Shown here: piece after piece, positions 34,916 to 48,247 of the stretch
How the letters are laid out: every line of letters begins with the position of its first letter
How positions within the stretch are numbered: position 1 is the stretch's first letter
NCBI GenBank assembly: GCA_002726935.1
Contig: PBTC01000036.1
Location: 1 to 48,451 of the forward strand
DNA: 48,451 nt
Source: Candidatus Saccharimonadota bacterium
Lineage (GTDB): Bacteria > Patescibacteriota > Saccharimonadia > Saccharimonadales > Saccharimonadaceae
Direction: 5' to 3'
Program-made: the position numbers and the translations under genes
Notes under the pieces: model-generated
The model's input: only the letters and a program-made list of their open reading frames with translations
Databases searched by the model: none
What the model was told of the DNA's origin: nothing

Positions 34916-36207
34916 GCGGCGTCCCTATAGAAATCAAGCGCCCGTTGGCAAACTTTTACATCACTCATCCTTAGGGGTGAGAGAAGTCTTATACCTTCAA
35001 GCTTAGTACACCTGGACAATGCAACATACGTTTGACCTGTCGCAAAGGCTCCAGTCGACAAATTTATGTTCACCTTGTCCATTGTGAGCGACTGACTCTT
35101 GTGAACTGTCATTGCCCATCCAAGAGTGATAGGCATCTGAGTAAATGTGCCTGTAGAGACTTGTTCAATTTGCCGGGATCCAGGCTCGAGAACATACTTG
35201 TATTTTTCCCAGGTCTCAGCGGTAAGAGTGTGCTCCTGCCCTGTTTTGTCGAGTTTGACGCCGATCTCAGTCGCGGTAATTGACGTAACGATGCCAGTAT
35301 CGCCATTTGAGTAGAAAGGGAAACGGTTTCTTGTCAATACGACCCTTGCGCCAATTTTGACGTCAAGGATAGCCGGTGCGATACACTGCTCTGCGGAATT
35401 CGCGAAACTACCTTGGATGTCGGCCAGGAATCGATAGGGTTCTGACTGAATCGCATTCAGGCGTTTTTGGTTAATGCTTTGAGCAAGTGCATTCGTGGGA
35501 ACTAGGCAAACGGCGTCGTCTTCGGGTTCATGCCTTCTGTCGAGATAGCATTTGTTATTCAAGAGGGCGAGATTTTCTCTGACTCTCTGACCTACCCTTA
35601 TCTCATCAAGTAGTCTGGAAAACTCAGGATCCTTCTGGCGAAAAGGCTTAGTCAACATGATGGTTGAGAGCTTGATCTCCTCGAAAGATCTGGCCATATA
35701 AAAGAGCTCGCTGGCATAGCCATTCTTGTCGTAATAGAGCGCCTCGTCTTCGCCGATCACAGGGGTTGTTTGTAGAAGGTCGCCTACAAAGACGACGGAG
35801 AGGCCTCCAAATGGTCTGTCTACGCCCCTAGCGAAACGCAAGATCGCATCGATAAGCTCCACCATGCAGGCGCTCAGCATTGATACTTCATCAATAACAA
35901 GAACATTGATGGCTTTAAGGAAATCGCGCTTTTCCTTCTTTACACCATTTAGCTGCGAGAATAGAAATACACCTATAGGTATTCCGAAAAGGGAATGAAC
36001 AGTGCTGCCACCGATGTTCAGCGCTCCAATACCGTGAGGAGCAACAAGGACTGTGTTTTTATGATGTTTCTGAATGAGCTTGATAAGAACACTCTTTCCT
36101 CGGCCCGCCCCTCCGGTTACAAAAATGGCTTGTTCCGGAGATTTCAAAAGTTCCAGAACGCGAGAATATTCTTCTGTAATCTCGATCTGATTATTATTGC
36201 TTGACAT
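34912..36207 (-). CDS. Pif1-type superfamily 1B helicase
   Basis: 431 aa. Walker A GGAGRGKS (32-39), Walker B IDEVSML (about 105-111), FVGDLLQTTPV (motif III), the Gln-rich turn TKPFRQKDPEF, and C-terminal WAMTVHKSQSLTMD with YVALSRCTKLEGI (motifs V and VI). It has the compact size of bacterial Pif1/TraA-like helicases, which move 5'-3' and remove G-quadruplexes or R-loops. The ATG lies 14 nt inside the preceding 78-aa gene. It is the last gene of the ung operon, so it would be made together with uracil repair. Confidence 0.88.
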   Translation of the reverse strand: MSSNNNQIEITEEYSRVLELLKSPEQAIFVTGGAGRGKSVLIKLIQKHHKNTVLVAPHGIGALNIGGSTVHSLFGIPIGVFLFSQLNGVKKEKRDFLKAINVLVIDEVSMLSACMVELIDAILRFARGVDRPFGGLSVVFVGDLLQTTPVIGEDEALYYDKNGYASELFYMARSFEEIKLSTIMLTKPFRQKDPEFSRLLDEIRVGQRVRENLALLNNKCYLDRRHEPEDDAVCLVPTNALAQSINQKRLNAIQSEPYRFLADIQGSFANSAEQCIAPAILDVKIGARVVLTRNRFPFYSNGDTGIVTSITATEIGVKLDKTGQEHTLTAETWEKYKYVLEPGSRQIEQVSTGTFTQMPITLGWAMTVHKSQSLTMDKVNINLSTGAFATGQTYVALSRCTKLEGIRLLSPLRMSDVKVCQRALDFYRDAA

Positions 36208-36430
36208 AAACGACCTGGAAAATATTCTCTGGCTTGGGATTGATAAAGTCTTGAGCCGGTTTCTTGGCTGCGCTGTAAGGCTTAGTCATCCACTCTTCAT
36301 TCAGGGCCAAATTAACGTATTCGAGAAATTTAGGATCACGAAGAACGCTGTCTTGGGGTATCTCAAACACCGGGTCTAAACTTTTGCCCTGTGCTAGAGA
36401 AAGCAGTGCGTTGCGTGTTCTTAAGCTCAT
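36194..36430 (-). CDS. unknown 78-aa protein of the ung operon
   Basis: No family recognised. Its front is helical and basic (MSLRTRNALLSLAQGKS); the rear holds prolines and ends VVYVKQ. It starts 4 nt after the HTTM-like gene and overlaps the helicase gene by 14 nt, so it could be a small partner of the helicase. Size and position are the only clues. Confidence 0.55.
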   Translation of the reverse strand: MSLRTRNALLSLAQGKSLDPVFEIPQDSVLRDPKFLEYVNLALNEEWMTKPYSAAKKPAQDFINPKPENIFQVVYVKQ

Positions 36431-36434
36431 ACGG

Positions 36435-38021
36435 TTATGCCCTGAGGTTGTCGTCTTGAAGCGGCGTTACTTCGACGCGTGCCGAGGTCTTCTGGAACAA
36501 CTCCCTAAAGAAAAGGCCGCTAAGGATAAGGAAAATGGCCCAGTAAACATAGGTAAGCACCTCATTGAACAGCCCAAGGGTGGGCCTATCGGAAGGCTGG
36601 ATGGGCTTTAAACCGAGATCGATGGCTAGCTGCTCATCATATAGACCGTCCCTCTCGGCATCAAAGCTCAGCATGCTAGAGGAGCCAAAGCGGTTGCCAT
36701 AGGTGTTTTGATAGGCATGAAACGATTTCATGCTTCCTACGTTCAAATTAATCCAGCTATTGCGCCCGAAGTAGTCATACTTCACCTGGCAGAGGTTCAC
36801 TCTCGAGACAATCTCGTAAAAGGGGCTGCCATTAACAGATGAGAGGAAGGTGAAAGCCAATTGAGGTTTGGGGGCCCCAGGTGGTGGCTCGACGCAATAC
36901 TGCTGCCTCGCATCATATAGGCTCTCCCAAACCGTGCAGCGATTCTGCGCGTACACGTTTGCTGCTTGAGACACAAATTTGAATTTTCTGTCCTCGCCGA
37001 CCTCTTCTATAACGCTGGCGCACTGGTGATTGGCATCGAACATGTAAAAACCCGAGGTGCTCAGCTCACCGGAAAGCTTTTCGTTGCCAGGCACCATCAC
37101 TTTCCCTACCTGGATCGCAAATAGAGCAAGGCAGACCACGAGCAGGACGTTATGGCCCCCTTGGATGCTTTTGTCGGGATTAAGGTCCCCGGTGATTTGC
37201 TTCATGGCCATCTTTAAAGGCACGTCGACTTTGCGCTGTAGGTCGAAAGCGAAAAGTACGATCAGCAAGGGAATGGTACTTAGTGGGAATCTCAGGCCAA
37301 CCACCGCCGCCGAGTAAATATGAAACAAGGAAAAAGACACGAAGGCAACCAGGCGTATCCGAGCATTCCCTGAAAGTAAGGCAAAGCCTGCGATGAGTTG
37401 AATCACGATCACCGTGTTGGTGGCCAAGATGGTCAAAGTCTCGCTATTCCCCGCGAAAGGCAGGCCTTCTTTTAATGTTAAAAAGTAGTCGCCTGAAATC
37501 CATCCCGAATCGAACTTTATAGTCGAACAAAGAAAATAGGTAAACACAAAGACTACTTTTGAAGCAAAAAATTTGTTCCGGGTGAACAGCAAGGCAAAAA
37601 GAATGACGATATCGTAGAAGTCGAAATTTAGAATTGGGAACTGAAACAATAGGGTAGGTACCGCCCGTATCAGAAACACGGCAAAAAGCATGCTCCAAGC
37701 AAGTTTTGTACGGTTTAGCGCGAGAGCTATTAGTCCAACTTCAATAGGGATCAGGGCGATAGCCATTGGTACGCGCAGATGGTTCATCCCGAACTGCGAA
37801 GTCAACCACTGGTGAGCGCTATTCAATATCGGTGCGCAGCCCTCAAAATAGGGAGGGCAGACACCGGGGCTTGCCCCCTGCACCATTGGTAATAGTATGT
37901 AGGGGCTTTGAATTATGGCACCCATCGCAATCAAGAAAAGGGCCGCGCACAATAGTCTCAAAAGAGGATGATTTAACTCCTGGTGGCCCGTCAGATTCCA
38001 TAGCCTGTCCGCATTGCTCAA
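36435..38021 (-). CDS. polytopic membrane protein, HTTM-like
   Basis: 528 aa with about ten membrane segments (for example 19-41, 80-101, 108-125, 200-222, 228-245, 250-265, 298-315 and 495-512). The N-terminal half resembles the HTTM (horizontally transferred transmembrane) domain related to vitamin-K-dependent gamma-carboxylase; SFSLFHIYSAAVVGLRFPLS is the most typical part. A large extracytoplasmic domain follows (about 320-480) with four or more cysteines, such as HQCASVIEE and RCTVWESL. The start overlaps the ung stop (ATGA). Why a membrane protein sits between ung and a helicase gene is unexplained; moderate certainty for the HTTM call. Confidence 0.65.
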   Translation of the reverse strand: MSNADRLWNLTGHQELNHPLLRLLCAALFLIAMGAIIQSPYILLPMVQGASPGVCPPYFEGCAPILNSAHQWLTSQFGMNHLRVPMAIALIPIEVGLIALALNRTKLAWSMLFAVFLIRAVPTLLFQFPILNFDFYDIVILFALLFTRNKFFASKVVFVFTYFLCSTIKFDSGWISGDYFLTLKEGLPFAGNSETLTILATNTVIVIQLIAGFALLSGNARIRLVAFVSFSLFHIYSAAVVGLRFPLSTIPLLIVLFAFDLQRKVDVPLKMAMKQITGDLNPDKSIQGGHNVLLVVCLALFAIQVGKVMVPGNEKLSGELSTSGFYMFDANHQCASVIEEVGEDRKFKFVSQAANVYAQNRCTVWESLYDARQQYCVEPPPGAPKPQLAFTFLSSVNGSPFYEIVSRVNLCQVKYDYFGRNSWINLNVGSMKSFHAYQNTYGNRFGSSSMLSFDAERDGLYDEQLAIDLGLKPIQPSDRPTLGLFNEVLTYVYWAIFLILSGLFFRELFQKTSARVEVTPLQDDNLRA

Positions 38022-38779
38022 GGCTTTTCTCCGTTGTTATTAAGTGTGTTCCAGTCAATTGCTTTCGCACCTTGGCTTTGGAGAAAGGAATTGACTTTGG
38101 AAAATGGTTTCGAACCGAAGAAGCCCCTGTTACAGGCTCCGCCTATGGGGGATGGGTGGCTTGTTTTAATGATTAGATGGCGATCAGCATTAAGGATGTG
38201 TTCCTCGTACAGTTGCGCGTGCTTGCCCCACAAAATAAAAGCCAAGTTTGCGCCCTCGCGAGCCGAAATCGCTTTAATCAGCAATTGTACGATTTCGCTC
38301 CAGCCGAGGTTGGCATGTGAGCCCGGCTCCCCGTGCCGAACGGATAAATAACTGTTTAATAGCAAAACCCCTTGTGTAGCCCAGCTTGTCAGGTCGCCAT
38401 GGTCAGGAACCGTAATCCCATTGTCGGCGTTAAGTTCCTTGAAAATGTTCTTCAAGCTTGGCGGAATCTTTGCTCCTTTGGGAACCGAAAACGAAAGTCC
38501 CATCGCTTGAGGGCGCTCAAGACCTGAAAGGTCTTTACAAAGATTGTGGTAAGGGTCCTGCCCGAGGATGACGACACGCGTGTCAGAAGGCGGGGTTAAC
38601 TCCAAAGCCTTAAATCGCTCGCAAGCCCAAGGGTAGATGCGCACCCCCTTTTCTGTCTCACCTCGAAGGGCAGCGTTGATCAATGAAAGCTGTCGATCAA
38701 TTTCCGATCCATCGTGATCCGAAAGCATTTCTCTCCATGAGCGTGGGATCTTTGTTAATGCATCGCTAGGGGTAATCAA
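38018..38779 (-). CDS. ung: family-1 uracil-DNA glycosylase with two active-site insertions
   Basis: 253 aa from TTG 38779, with GGAGA upstream. It removes uracil from DNA by hydrolysis of the glycosidic bond. Family motifs are present: GQDPYH with catalytic D75, LSFSVPKGAKIPPSLKNIF, GVLLLNSYLSVRHGEPGSHA, ILWGKHAQ and TSHPSP. Compared with E. coli Ung, about nine extra residues (LCKDLSGLE region, 79-90) follow GQDPYH. Two extra residues also lie in the loop HPSPIGGACNRGFFG, where the intercalating leucine of HPSPL is isoleucine. The first gene of an operon with the HTTM-like protein, a 78-aa protein and a Pif1 helicase; divergent from the methyltransferase gene. Confidence 0.92.
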   Translation of the reverse strand: MITPSDALTKIPRSWREMLSDHDGSEIDRQLSLINAALRGETEKGVRIYPWACERFKALELTPPSDTRVVILGQDPYHNLCKDLSGLERPQAMGLSFSVPKGAKIPPSLKNIFKELNADNGITVPDHGDLTSWATQGVLLLNSYLSVRHGEPGSHANLGWSEIVQLLIKAISAREGANLAFILWGKHAQLYEEHILNADRHLIIKTSHPSPIGGACNRGFFGSKPFSKVNSFLQSQGAKAIDWNTLNNNGEKP

Positions 38780-38843
38780 CCTGGTTTCTCCGAGAGGATT
38801 TTGGATAAATCCAATTGTAGCAGCTTTTTAATATTTGTGTTAT

Positions 38844-38867: not shown

Positions 38868-40055
38868 ATGCAGTTAAGTCTTTTTGAGAAAAGTGTCTTA
38901 GAAGGTGTAAAAAAACACGGGACGACTGCTGGTGCCTATGAGTATGTAAGGCAATCAATGGGCTTAAGTGATCGTGACATGAGCGAAATGGTGCAAGCGG
39001 GATCTTGGGGCCAGACAAAGAAGTGGCCTCGTAAGATCCGATACCTGCAGCAAACACTAAAAGCCGCTGGACTTATCAAGTCCGGCGATAAGAGAGGCAC
39101 CTGGAGAACTACCGAAAAAGGCGACTCTGTCCTGACGAAGTCTTCGTCTGGCGACCTACAGATCGTTTTCTTCACCAATTATGGCGTAGCGCTCTGGGGT
39201 GACGGAAAAGAACTGGCAAAGCATTTCAAAGGAGAGGTGGAGATGATTATGACCTCGCCACCGTATCTGCTCAGCCGGGACCGCTCATATGGAAACTGGG
39301 GGCGAACCGAAAAAGAGTATGTTCGCAACGTTGTCCAGAATGTCGAGGCTTGGCTACCGTTATTAACCAAGAGCGGAAGCCTGGTCTTAAATCTTGGGGA
39401 GTCGACGATCCCTGGAACCGGCCAACAGAGTCTTTCAAATGAGAGGATCCTGATACAACTTGAGGACGAGCTGGGTCTACATCTGGTTCAAAAGTTTGTG
39501 TGGGAAAATCCGGTCAAGCAGCCAACGGGTTATTGGGTAACACGTGAACGCAAGCGTTGCGTGTTCTCAACTGAAAATTTATTTTGGCTTTCTTTGGATC
39601 CAAAAGTTACCAAAGCTGATAACCGCAGGGTCTTAAGGCCGTACTCCCAGGCGCAGGAACGACTAATGGGACGGTTGTCAAATTCCGATACAGAACGAAA
39701 GAGCCGACCCTCGGGGCTTACCAGTCTAGAAAAAACCTTTTATGCGGACAACGGTGGTGCCATCCCTAGAAATCTGCTTCGCATCCCGCACGAGGGTGCG
39801 AATTCGGAATACAGTCGCGAATGCAAGAAAAATAACTTGCCTCGCCACCCCGCGATGTTCCCCTACGACCTTGCTGAGTTTTTTGTGAAATTCATTACTG
39901 AAGAAAGCGACTTGGTTGCCGATCCATGTTCTGGATCTTTCAAGTTAGGTGAAGCTGCAGAAAAAAATAAGCGATTTTGGGCTGGTAGTGAACTGTTTTT
40001 AGAAAACATCTTGGGCGGTGGTCTCAGGTTCAAAGAAAAACACTTTGCAATTTAA
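38868..40055 (+). CDS. orphan DNA methyltransferase, probably N4-cytosine type
   Basis: 395 aa; TAGGAG lies before the ATG. An N-terminal winged-helix-like part (about 1-95; LFEKSVLEGVKKHGTTAGAY, and WPRKIRYLQQTLKAAGLIK) resembles Mrr/PvuII-methylase N-termini. Catalytic motif IV is TSPPY (129-133), the SPPY variant typical of N4-cytosine methylases. The S-adenosylmethionine motif lies far downstream (VADPCSGSF, about D352), giving the beta-class order. No restriction endonuclease gene is adjacent, so it is an orphan, perhaps for marking plasmid DNA or evading host restriction during transfer. Confidence 0.85.
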   Translation: MQLSLFEKSVLEGVKKHGTTAGAYEYVRQSMGLSDRDMSEMVQAGSWGQTKKWPRKIRYLQQTLKAAGLIKSGDKRGTWRTTEKGDSVLTKSSSGDLQIVFFTNYGVALWGDGKELAKHFKGEVEMIMTSPPYLLSRDRSYGNWGRTEKEYVRNVVQNVEAWLPLLTKSGSLVLNLGESTIPGTGQQSLSNERILIQLEDELGLHLVQKFVWENPVKQPTGYWVTRERKRCVFSTENLFWLSLDPKVTKADNRRVLRPYSQAQERLMGRLSNSDTERKSRPSGLTSLEKTFYADNGGAIPRNLLRIPHEGANSEYSRECKKNNLPRHPAMFPYDLAEFFVKFITEESDLVADPCSGSFKLGEAAEKNKRFWAGSELFLENILGGGLRFKEKHFAI

Positions 40056-43245: not shown

Positions 43246-43827
43246 TTATTTTTTAGGGTTTAGATTGCTTTTGGAGCGATTAATCGAGATGGGCCTCCAA
43301 CTACCTTTCTCGGTCCCTCTGGCAAAGGCTTGAATGGTCTTTTTGTTCTGAAAGGAATTCAGGGTCTTATTCCAGTGATCTAAGCTGATTATACAAACTG
43401 CCTGTAAATTGTTGTCATGCACGTCACACTGGTGAACTTTCAAGGAATCTCGCGTTCGAGTGTAGATCACCTCAAAAGCGCGTTTTGTTTTTTCATCAGT
43501 AGCTTGATTGATCGCCGTCTTTGAGATGAGAGTCCGGCTCTCAAAAGCCATGGTAATCAGGGCTTTTGCGCTGTCATTGTTAATCTCATACACCTCCCCC
43601 CATTTGTACTTTCCGTAGCGAGTGGTTCTTAGTTGGTCTTCTGGAGAGCCGAAACCGTTGCCCTGCTGCCAGAGCATTTCCGCTCTTTCTCTTTCTTTTT
43701 GCACAATGGCCTCTCTCTCTTTTTGCTCCTTGAGCTCTCTTTGAGCGATGTCCTCCTCGTTCTCGCCAAAGCACCCGGCCAAGAGAAACGGAAGTAAAAG
43801 TGTGATTACTCTCAAATTATTGAACAT
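43246..43827 (-). CDS. small lipoprotein, third of three with a two-cysteine design
   Basis: 193 aa. The signal peptide ends LLAGC (Cys19). A charged coiled-coil stretch follows ([20 protein letters not shown]) and a globular domain with [20 protein letters not shown], then a basic [19 protein letters not shown] segment. The cysteine pair followed by an aromatic-Arg strand and a Trp strand matches the lipoproteins at 24881 and 27187. The gene starts 11 nt inside the end of parC, so it is coupled to topoisomerase IV, an odd combination. Confidence 0.75.
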
Positions 43828-46243
43828 CTTTTACTCCAGGCTCACTTAAGGGAAAGTTGATTTCTTTGGCCCAGTCGAACTTTTTCACTGAAACTGGAAC
43901 CACTCTGCCTTTTTGTCCTCTAGCACCGAGCTCGAACTGATTGTATTCAGTTCGAGTTTCGCCTTTTGCTACGATAAAGACAGGCACTTTATTTAAATCG
44001 GACACGAATTGCGGCTGAATAATCTTCTCGCCAGGCTTCAACGGGGTGATTTGGAGTCCCCGACCTTTGTCGGCGAATCGTAGTTCAGTCACTTGGAATG
44101 CTAATCCTTTGCCTGATGTGTCGTTGATACAGCAGAAATATTCTTTTAGTTTCAGAGGTCGATAAAGGCTTTCGCCGTCTTTCAGCGTAAAGAAGGCCTT
44201 GCCCGCTTTATTTCGCGTGGATAACGCGCCTACGTTGGAAATAAATCCATAGCCCGCATCACAACAAACAAAGAACTCGTCTTTTTCAGCGCCGGCGACA
44301 AGGGCTATCGGTTTAACTTTTTGTTCGAAATCGCACATTGAGGACAACGGAACTCCGTCAGTCTTTCCCGATGGGATCTGCGTTACGGAGAGCGAATATG
44401 CTCTCCCGTCGCTGGCAAGTAGATTAATGGGATTGGCAGACTCTGTTTCAATTGCCTGAAGAAGGGAGTCACCTTCTTTAAAGGTCACAGCGCTCAAATC
44501 AACCCCGTGGCCTCCCCTTTGCTTAATCCAACCCTTTTTTGAGAGCAGCAGTGTGATTTTCTCGTTAACGGTGGCTGCCTCCGATAGCGTGACTCGTTCA
44601 GATTCATACATCTTGGTTCTGCGTTCATCTGCGTACTTAGATCCGTCAGATAGAACTTCACGAGACACGAAGTCACGAAGGGATGAGTCACTAGAAAGAA
44701 TATCCCTCAGTGATTCAAGCTCTTCTTTAAGAGCTTTGATTTCCTGATCCAGCTTGAAGCCTTCCAGCCTTGCAAGTTGACGTAGCCTAATCTCAAGGAT
44801 GTCATCGGCCTGGGTATCGGAGAGACCAAAGGCATGCATAAGGTCTTCTTTTGGATTGTCGGATGCACGAATAATCGCGATCACCCGATCAATGTTTAAG
44901 AAGGCTATCTTTCGCCCCTCGAGGATATGCAATCGCTTCTCAATTTGAGAAATTCGATTGTTAATCCGATTGGTGACAGTTTGTAACCTAAAGCTACACC
45001 ATTCATCGAGCATGGTTCTCAGGCTCTTCTGCGCGGGCCTGCCGTCCAGTCCAATTGAAACGAGATTAATTGACACTGTTGATTCGAGACTTGTGTAAGC
45101 TAACAAGGTCTTAGCGAATTCTTCCCGATCTATTTTTGAGCTCTTTGGTTCGAAAACCAATCTCACTGCATAGTCCTTCCCGGACTCATCGCGAACCGTG
45201 TCGATTAAGTTCAGGAACAGAGCCTTGATTCTTTGTTGCTCTGGATCAAGTACCTTTTTCCCCGTCTTTATTTGGGGATTTGAGAGCGCTTCGATCTGCT
45301 CGAGTACCTTCGCTGCAGAAACCCCATGAGGAAGCTCTTTGACGACAAGCTTCCATTGGCCGCGACTTAATTCTTCAAATTCATAGGAGCAACGAAGTGC
45401 CAGCGACCCCCTTCCCTCCCTGTAGGCGGCAAGTATCTGGTCCCTGGGGGTTATACACAATCCTCCGCCAGGGAAATCTGGCCCAATAAACTGTTCGTAG
45501 AACGAATCATCGGTCAGTCCAGGGTTTTTAATAAGATCTGCCGCTAAACTTGAAATTTCAGAAAGATTATGGGATGGGCACTCTGTCGCCATGCCCACGG
45601 CAACGCCCGAAGCGCCGTTAAGAAGAAGCATGGGAAGACGCGCAGGTAGAACTGCCGGCTCCCGAAAAGCTCCATCGTAGTTGTCCTTAAAATCCACGGT
45701 GTTCAGATCGATTTCCGACAGCAGCAGCTCCGAGTACTTGGTCAGTCGGCTTTCGGTGTAGCGCATCGCGGCCGCGGAATCACCATCTCGACTGCCAAAA
45801 TTACCCTGCCCGTCTATTAGCGGGTATCTCAAGGAGAAGTCCTGAGCCTGGCGAACCATTGCGTCATAAACACTGGTGTCGCCGTGAGGGTGGAATTTAC
45901 CAAGTACTTCTCCAACGACACGAGCGCTTTTGACGTGTTTTGAAGAGGAGGTGAGGCCGAGATCGTGCATCGCATACAGGATTCGCCTTTGCACGGGCTT
46001 TTGGCCATCAGACACGTCCGGAAGAGCTCTGCCTTTTAATACGGCGATGCCGTAGGACAGATACGCTTTAGTGGCATAGGACTCAAGTGAGTCGTCGTCG
46101 AAATTAATCGGCTCACGTGGACCGTCGCCGTCAATGGGCGGAACAGATTGACCCGCGCTTTGAGGAAGTTCGACAATAGCTTCGGACTTTTTGAGGTTAG
46201 TCTCGTCTTGTGCTTCAAAATCGATAGAAAACTGGCTAGTCAT
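43817..46243 (-). CDS. parC: topoisomerase IV subunit A
   Basis: 808 aa, with about 50 extra N-terminal residues compared with E. coli ParC. The breakage-reunion domain has [13 protein letters not shown] and the catalytic tyrosine Y162 in AAMRYTES. The sites matching the quinolone residues Ser80 and Glu84 of E. coli ParC are T123 and D127. The C-terminal domain ([40 protein letters not shown]) follows ParC and lacks a GyrA box, so this is ParC rather than GyrA. With ParE it relaxes and decatenates daughter molecules. parE lies 36 nt upstream. Confidence 0.93.
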
Positions 46244-46279
46244 TGTTTATTCCGAATTATTTTCAGGCTTCTTTTACAC

Positions 46280-48247
46280 TTAAGATTCAGACTCGAATCT
46301 ATCTCCAAAGTCCTCAAGAAGTGCTCTCCTTGAGTGCGCTTCCTTTTTGCCCATCAATTTATTAAGTGCGGTGAACACCTCGCCGGTAAAATCTTCCGTT
46401 TGCATACGAACTAATCGCCGCGTGTCAGGATTAAGCGTGGTTTCCCACAGTTGCTCCGGGGACATCTCTCCCAAGCCTTTAAATCGGGAAACCGAATAAG
46501 AAGAGTCTTTTAGGCCTTCAAGTTGAAGCTTTTCCAGGGTGATCCTTAATTCATCTTCATCTAGGCAATAGAACTTTCGTGCGGGCTTTCCCTTGCCCGC
46601 AGCCGCCACATCTATCCTAAACAGCGGTGGTTGCGCGATGTAAATTAAGCCCTGCCGGATAAGTTCCGGGAAATGCTTATAAAACAGCGTCAGTAGCAAT
46701 ACCTGGATATGTGATCCGTCAACATCCGCGTCTGAGAGTATGCAAATTCGTTTGTACCGAAGCCCCGTCATGTCAGGCTTGTCCGTTGGAGCATGGGGGT
46801 CCACCCCAATTGCAACGGCGATGTCATGAATCTCGGTGTTGGCTAATAGCTGATCGGCAGCAGTCTCCCAGGAGTTCAACACTTTTCCCCTGAGGGGTAG
46901 GATAGCCTGGCACTCCTTGTCGCGACCCATCTTTGCAGATCCGCCCGCGGAATCGCCTTCAACAAAGAACACCTCACGAGCGTCTAAGTCGTCTGTTTCG
47001 CAGTCTGTTAATTTCCCTGGTAGAGTAGCCACGCCCGAACTCTTTTTGCGTTCAATTTTTTGAGCGGACTTCTGTCTGGCTTGCGCGGCTCGAATTGCCA
47101 TCTCAGCAATCTTTTTCGCTGCGTCGACGTTGTCCGCAAGCCAAAACTCAAAGGGAGCCTTGATTGACCAAGAGACCAGCTTTACAGCGTCTCGGCTATT
47201 CAGTTTTTCCTTGATTTGACCCTGGAATTGAGGGTCCAGGACCTTCGCTGCCAGAACGTAGCTAAGGTTCGAGCATACGTCTTCGCTAGTGACTTTAAGG
47301 CCCTTGTGAGCCATGTTGTTGGCGTCAATGAAATTTCTAACGGCTGTGAAGATTCCGTCGCGCAAGCCGGCGTCGTGGGTACCTCCAAGGGTGGTCGGAA
47401 TTAGGTTAACGTATGAGGCTCGAACCTTCGAGCCGGCTTCGGAGAAGCAGATCGCATATTCCGCCCCCTCTCCCTTAGCGATTGACTCCTGGGTTTCGGG
47501 TGAAAACTTCTCTCCTGAGAAGAATATATCGCTCTCGCTTCCCTCAAGTTGTTCCTTTAAATATTGGGTAATTCCGTTCTCGTAAAGAAATGACTGCTCA
47601 TCAAAGGCTCCGGGAGTGATCTCTCTGCAAAATACGAACTCCACGCCTTTCAATAGCGTGGCCTTTGACCTTACAAGATCACGGAGATCTTTAAGTGGCA
47701 CCGTTCCATTGTCAAAGAAGCTTGAATCTGGCCAAGCCCTAACCCTGGTACCGGTATCGGATTTCTCACACTTACCCTTGCGCTCAACAGGCTCGATTAC
47801 CTCCCCGCCGGAGAACGCTATTGTGTGGATGGCACCATCTCGATGCACCTCAACCTCAAGTCTGGTAGAAAGCGCATTGGTCACCGACACGCCTACACCG
47901 TGCAATCCACCGGAAAACCTATACGATGAATCGGCGTCGGCTTTGTTAAACTTCCCGCCCGCATGAAGCTTGGTAAACACTAGCTCGACAACTGGGACTC
48001 CTTCCGTAGGATGGATCCCGACAGGAATACCGCGCCCTTCATCCTGTATTTCAACGCTTCCGTCCAAGAAAGCTCGAACTACAATTTTTTTGCCATTCCC
48101 AGACAGAGCTTCGTCTGTCGCGTTGTCTAGGACCTCCTGCATGATGTGTAGCGGGTCATCTGTCCGCGTGTACATTCCTGGCCGAGCTCTAACAGGTTCT
48201 AGGCCTTTAAGAACCCGAATGTCGGATTCGTCATATGTTTTTTTCAT
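46280..48247 (-). CDS. parE: topoisomerase IV subunit B
   Basis: 655 aa, near E. coli ParE (630). GHKL ATPase motifs EVLDNATDEAL, DEGRGIPVG and GGLHGVGVSV are intact. The TOPRIM part has FVEGDSAGGSA, LSDADVDGSHI and SRFKGLGEMSPEQLW; the long insertion of GyrB is absent. It supplies ATP-driven strand passage. First gene of a four-gene minus-strand operon behind TTGAAT-17-TATAAT. No Shine-Dalgarno sequence is visible before the ATG. A plasmid-borne pair suggests the element handles its own decatenation. Confidence 0.94.
   Translation of the reverse strand: MKKTYDESDIRVLKGLEPVRARPGMYTRTDDPLHIMQEVLDNATDEALSGNGKKIVVRAFLDGSVEIQDEGRGIPVGIHPTEGVPVVELVFTKLHAGGKFNKADADSSYRFSGGLHGVGVSVTNALSTRLEVEVHRDGAIHTIAFSGGEVIEPVERKGKCEKSDTGTRVRAWPDSSFFDNGTVPLKDLRDLVRSKATLLKGVEFVFCREITPGAFDEQSFLYENGITQYLKEQLEGSESDIFFSGEKFSPETQESIAKGEGAEYAICFSEAGSKVRASYVNLIPTTLGGTHDAGLRDGIFTAVRNFIDANNMAHKGLKVTSEDVCSNLSYVLAAKVLDPQFQGQIKEKLNSRDAVKLVSWSIKAPFEFWLADNVDAAKKIAEMAIRAAQARQKSAQKIERKKSSGVATLPGKLTDCETDDLDAREVFFVEGDSAGGSAKMGRDKECQAILPLRGKVLNSWETAADQLLANTEIHDIAVAIGVDPHAPTDKPDMTGLRYKRICILSDADVDGSHIQVLLLTLFYKHFPELIRQGLIYIAQPPLFRIDVAAAGKGKPARKFYCLDEDELRITLEKLQLEGLKDSSYSVSRFKGLGEMSPEQLWETTLNPDTRRLVRMQTEDFTGEVFTALNKLMGKKEAHSRRALLEDFGDRFESES

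Follow-up and report, generated by a model that had tools for sequence, protein, structure and literature searches.

The uracil-DNA glycosylase (Ung) encoded in the window, as we call the whole 48,451-nucleotide stretch analysed, appears from its sequence to be a genuine, uncommon, clade-conserved form of a familiar enzyme, and its function is most likely uracil repair. Ung is a textbook enzyme, and its active-site loops vary little across bacteria. The window Ung is probably a catalytically competent family-1 uracil-DNA glycosylase (UDG) of a proteobacterial subfamily that is so far megaplasmid-only, and it would act in uracil repair by means of altered DNA-gripping loops. The megaplasmid clade to which it belongs, together with an independent occurrence in Vibrio megaplasmids, constitutes a natural experiment on the role of the Ung loops. 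The same cases bear on why very large plasmids bring their own uracil repair. The features of the ung region are listed in Table 1.

Table 1 Features of the ung region (window coordinates)
Feature	Position	Strand	Remarks
ung (uracil-DNA glycosylase)	38018-38779	-	253-aa ORF, TTG start
Loop 1, NLCKDLSGLERPQ	38507-38545	-	Residues 79-91, between GQDPYH and AMGLSFSV; +9 versus E. coli-type Ung
Loop 2 (HPSP/leucine loop)	38126-38146	-	Block pLDDT 80
Possible ung promoter, ATAACA-18-TACAAT	38814-38843	-	Consensus match only
528-aa protein	36435-38021	-	Begins with TTG; 4-nt overlap with the ung stop
78-aa ORF, putative ung operon	36194-36430	-	No family assigned
PIF1-like SF1 helicase, 431 aa	34912-36207	-	Last gene of the putative operon; PF05970, 4.3e-28
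DNA methyltransferase (N6_N4_Mtase) with Mrr_N domain	38868-40055	+	Divergent from ung

The window Ung passed the NCBIfam cut-offs for the family, with 242 bits versus 223 for PRK05254.1-2 and 206.1 bits versus 185.75 for TIGR00628, and three PRK05254 models were exceeded in all. Among solved structures, Ungs scored best (3zoq, E = 2.7e-54), and the nearest chains include the enzymes of B. subtilis, B. thailandensis, and C. burnetii. The AlphaFold2 model had a mean pLDDT of 90.7 and was superimposed on solved Ungs by VIA-align with Z scores of 28.7-32.6. The values were about 32 for the human, E. coli, and Bacillus enzymes, DNA-bound and inhibitor-bound forms included; the human UNG-DNA structure gave Z = 32.6 (222 residues, rmsd 1.7). 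The motifs GQDPYH (residues 73-78), FSV, IPPSL, LLLN, and HPSP (motif list from PMC1936997) are all in place. The Asp, Tyr, and His of GQDPYH (D75, Y77, and H78), the uracil-stacking Phe (F97), the LLLN Asn (N142), the HPSP His (H208), and the IPPSL Ser are kept. The original prediction of a plasmid-borne Ung therefore holds, considering these family scores and the plasmid genes on the same contig, namely, those of a TrfA-type replication initiator, DotH and DotI (T4BSS/conjugation), and ParC/ParE. On the reverse strand, GGAG is found 8 nt 5' of the TTG start; consensus hits like the promoter candidate were as many in shuffled sequences, which gives no evidence of its function.

The two insertions noticed originally, about nine residues after GQDPYH and two in the HPSP loop with Ile in place of the intercalating Leu, were both confirmed. 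Loop 1 has 13 residues, whereas E. coli-type Ungs have only GPGQ (four residues). Loop 2 reads HPSP-IGGACNR-GFFG, in which seven residues replace the five of LSAHR and Ile occupies the position of the intercalating Leu191. The reading-head Arg is kept (R218), and Lys is found there in the clade relatives described below. As the two extra residues fall between R218 and the intercalating Ile, the wedge is expected to be longer. In the AlphaFold2 model, the loop-1 insert folds into a short hairpin of two beta-strands (80-82 and 88-90; block pLDDT 94); the alignment used for the model included no clade member, and the hairpin is thus inferred from a single sequence. The leucine loop was modeled less surely (pLDDT ~80). 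Relative to the family-1 enzymes of E. coli, B. subtilis, and human (TIGR00628), the window Ung shares the fold (Z ~32), the catalytic and pocket residues, and the reading-head Arg, but it differs in the +9 insertion after GQDPYH, the +2 insertion in the HPSP loop, Ile for Leu/Phe, and Lys for Ser in the Gly-Ser loop.

Lengthened loops of this kind are rare. In a survey of 193 Ung sequences, nearly all were short-looped, and both loops were long in only four, all of which are megaplasmid-borne. A four-residue loop 1 was present in 89 of the 92 Ungs first examined, and loop 1 was also short in the 30 loci that scored best against the clade profile in 369 gammaproteobacterial genomes. The linkage between long loop 1 and long loop 2 was significant when sequences were counted (Fisher p = 0.0013) and marginal when lineages were counted (p = 0.055). 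Since plasmid records were drawn on purpose and the plasmid collection is itself biased, "megaplasmid-only" holds for this survey. A DNA pattern for loop 2, HPS..(I/M)GG..C, which does detect both clade relatives, matched none of the 369 gammaproteobacterial genomes, none of 398 genomes drawn from the phylum (a sample that overlaps with the former), and no IMG/VR contig. The host-group background was thus ruled out as the source of the insertions. The observation that would have spoken against the original prediction, the same insertions being common in ordinary chromosomal Ungs, was made neither in the survey nor in the genome scans. None of 60 viral Ungs had both loops long, and a phage origin of the window Ung was rejected, as no close relative was found in IMG/VR or phage records. 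Separately, leucine loops lengthened by six residues were observed in marine gammaproteobacterial Ungs of Neiella and Bermanella (loci L082, L087, and L091). Extensions of this loop, which are of similar size in gamma-herpesviruses, were reported to be exclusive to those viruses (PMC5934625); the bacterial examples suggest that they are not.

Alignment with the nearest homologues, the check proposed with the original prediction, revealed that both insertions and the loop-2 motif of the window are shared by the Ungs of Azoarcus sp. KH32C plasmid pAZKH (737 kb; WP_015452068.1) and a Methylobacter sp. YRD-M1 plasmid (349 kb; WP_268120970.1). Because they are common to these relatives, the insertions are not due to chance. 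A loop 1 of at least 13 residues combined with a loop 2 of the form HPS(P/S)(I/M)GG(A/S)C was found in the window Ung and its two relatives (loci L135 and L134). In a maximum-likelihood tree of 88 Ungs with the loop columns removed, the window, pAZKH, and Methylobacter enzymes formed one clade (support 100/91), and the next branch was a short-loop gammaproteobacterial Ung (100/97). The insertions are therefore most simply explained as a derived trait of the clade. On these grounds, we propose a putative double-loop megaplasmid Ung subfamily with three members. The members are 48-53% identical overall. The relatives differ from the window Ung in overall sequence (48% identity), loop-1 sequence, and gene neighborhood, with no neighbor gene in common, and the Methylobacter enzyme also differs in loop-1 length.

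The loops might have drifted neutrally, or in a lineage-specific manner, in an ordinary Ung captured by a plasmid, without gaining a new role. Indeed, the loop-1 site takes insertions sporadically elsewhere (+4 in a Helicobacteraceae MAG, +8 in a Flavobacteriales MAG, and +10 in a viral contig); Burkholderia thailandensis Ung (9pyv) also resembles the window in having an insertion there (+4), but its leucine loop is ordinary. Loop-1 sequences are very different among the three clade members. As the loop sequences are poorly conserved except for GG-x-C-x-(K/R), drift may account for some of loop 1. As an account of both loops, however, drift is unlikely: loop 2 keeps GG(A/S)C(N/Y)(K/R)GFFGS(K/R)PFS at the modest overall identity of the clade, and both loops were changed jointly in the clade and again in a Vibrio megaplasmid Ung.

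Our preferred reading is uracil repair with altered DNA engagement. Because the catalytic and uracil-pocket residues are intact, uracil should be the substrate. The window Ung would flip and excise uracil in the same way as an ordinary Ung and thereby initiate base-excision repair on the plasmid and also on the DNA of the host. It would belong to an element-borne DNA-maintenance set with topoisomerase IV, an HU-like protein, and RecD2-like and PIF1-like helicases. The longer HPSP loop and the hairpin, which adjoins the water-activating loop, may alter how the DNA is wedged and held. Their effect would then be on minor-groove reach, affinity, and the preference for ssDNA or dsDNA, with the choice of base unchanged. 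The gamma-herpesvirus UNGs of EBV and KSHV provide a parallel, as they carry an extension in the same minor-groove loop, although it is longer (+7/8 versus +2 in the window). In KSHV UNG, the extension reaches into the minor groove, and both bases of the pair are flipped, with uracil excision retained (PMC5934625). By analogy with this precedent, altered DNA engagement rather than altered base choice is suggested for the window Ung.

The original prediction had also raised a shifted specificity, which the wholly canonical uracil-pocket and catalytic residues do not support. A further explanation is that the loops allow excision of a modified phage or plasmid base, as Brig1 does on glucosylated hydroxymethylcytosine. 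Enzymes of the UDG superfamily can become antiphage glycosylases (PMC11078745), and a DNA methyltransferase gene divergently adjoins ung. Nevertheless, a changed substrate is highly improbable. Brig1 has a predicted enlarged pocket and a family-4 UDG as its best structural match (PMC11078745), whereas the pocket of the window Ung is canonical, including the Tyr of GQDPYH, and its insertions are located at the DNA-gripping rim, outside the pocket.

Escape from inhibitors was the other possibility raised originally. According to this explanation, the lengthened loops would keep the enzyme active against DNA mimics of the Ugi, SAUGI, and p56 types produced by a phage or a competing mobile element, so that invaders with uracil-containing DNA are still attacked. 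Both loops lie beside the cleft occupied by such inhibitors in Ung-Ugi structures (PMC1936997), the inhibitors are carried by phages and SCC elements (PMC10303552), and a Wadjet-type defence operon is present on the same element. The usual inhibitor target is a Leu or Phe residue (PMC10303552). In poxvirus UDG, which has an apical Arg, inhibition is lost; the Arg of the vaccinia enzyme is the charged residue of the known non-inhibited case (PMC1936997), and a Tyr in the mimivirus enzyme has been proposed to weaken Ugi binding (PMC5538708). The apical residue of the window Ung, however, is Ile, which is hydrophobic, and loop-extended enzymes are still bound, as observed for EBV UNG with Ugi (2J8X; PMC5934625) and KSHV UDG with SAUGI (6lyv). 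Moreover, PADLOC matched none of ung, the 528-aa ORF, and the 78-aa ORF, and the clade relatives share no defence neighbors. It is possible that the modeled loop-1 hairpin could obstruct an inhibitor, but escape as the role of the loops is improbable, and uracil repair with modified loops is preferred.

Four Vibrio megaplasmids (882-939 kb) also encode a divergent Ung. The gene read in detail, on V. parahaemolyticus pVP-19-VB00998 (L176, 4001-4720), specifies an enzyme with both loops lengthened, and near copies are found on the three other plasmids. The Vibrio parahaemolyticus/V. vulnificus enzyme (WP_258667826.1) resembles the window Ung in being megaplasmid-borne with two long loops, but it differs in having loop 1 extended by eight and loop 2 by six residues, and in the replacement of the His of GQDPYH by Ile (as read in one of the four). 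Its branch is long and separate, and the placement of this branch is unsure. A broader conjecture is that megaplasmids repeatedly evolve an Ung of their own with both loops rebuilt, which would engage DNA distinctly (by a deeper wedge or by double flipping like that of KSHV UNG) and remain active when inhibitors from phages or rival plasmids silence the host Ung; we regard it as quite doubtful.

Downstream of ung, the 528-aa protein gene, the 78-aa ORF, and the helicase gene follow on the same strand. The 528-aa product looks like a multi-pass membrane protein when judged by eye; it had no Pfam, NCBIfam, or PADLOC match and nothing meaningful in the PDB. An operon of the four genes is plausible from their close spacing on one strand. 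The original prediction that ung heads an operon with a helicase is supported to this extent by the spacing and the 4-nt overlap, but its association with the helicase does not extend to the clade: in the stretches around ung of the clade relatives, none of the 528-aa ORF, the 78-aa ORF, and the helicase was found, so the helicase link is local. A conserved functional link of ung with the helicase, the methyltransferase, or the 528-aa ORF was likewise rejected, as none of them is a common neighbor in the pAZKH, Methylobacter, and Vibrio stretches. The sole neighbor in common with the Vibrio plasmids is an HU/IHF-type gene. No restriction partner of the methyltransferase was recognized among the scanned neighbors, and there is at present no evidence linking it functionally to ung.

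The window is the entire contig C36 of a 1.34-Mb MAG, and Ung was absent from all 16 genomes of the same genus that were searched (0.6-0.9 Mb). The MAG is apparently chimeric, as contigs C13, C14, C19, C26, C37, C41, C42, and C43 share the tetranucleotide profile of C36. The correlation with the window is 0.86-0.95 in this megaplasmid-like set and 0.3-0.7 for most contigs, with two intermediate values (0.70 and 0.84). The contigs of window-like composition sum to ~0.54 Mb. Their simplest reading is a conjugative megaplasmid, one or a set, that came from another host and was mis-binned; a single replicon is inferred from the composition and the complementary gene content, and a circularity check gave no overlap between the ends of C36. 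The set also carries a coupling protein (on C26) and a RecD2-like helicase. The topoisomerase IV subunits ParC and ParE are encoded in the window at 43817-48247, and ParC is closest to betaproteobacterial ParC (~50-52% identity). The host is thus probably a proteobacterium, not the small-genome organism after which the bin is named. Only one dUTPase was detected in the bin, and its contig, C30, has the other composition.

Several other loci of the window-like contigs deserve mention. An array of 21 tRNAs covering most amino acids is located on C42 (L098, 5931-16721), and three more tRNAs are on C41 (L097, 8283-8547); such a near-complete tRNA set is unusual on plasmid-like DNA. The Wadjet-type (Jet) operon is on C14 (L112, 6224-13341) and encodes JetD_C, SbcC/SMC-like ATPase, and DUF3375 proteins in consecutive genes. 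On C26 (L106, 9878-15586), a gene for a 1902-aa Strawberry-notch-type helicase is followed by one for an SNF2 helicase.
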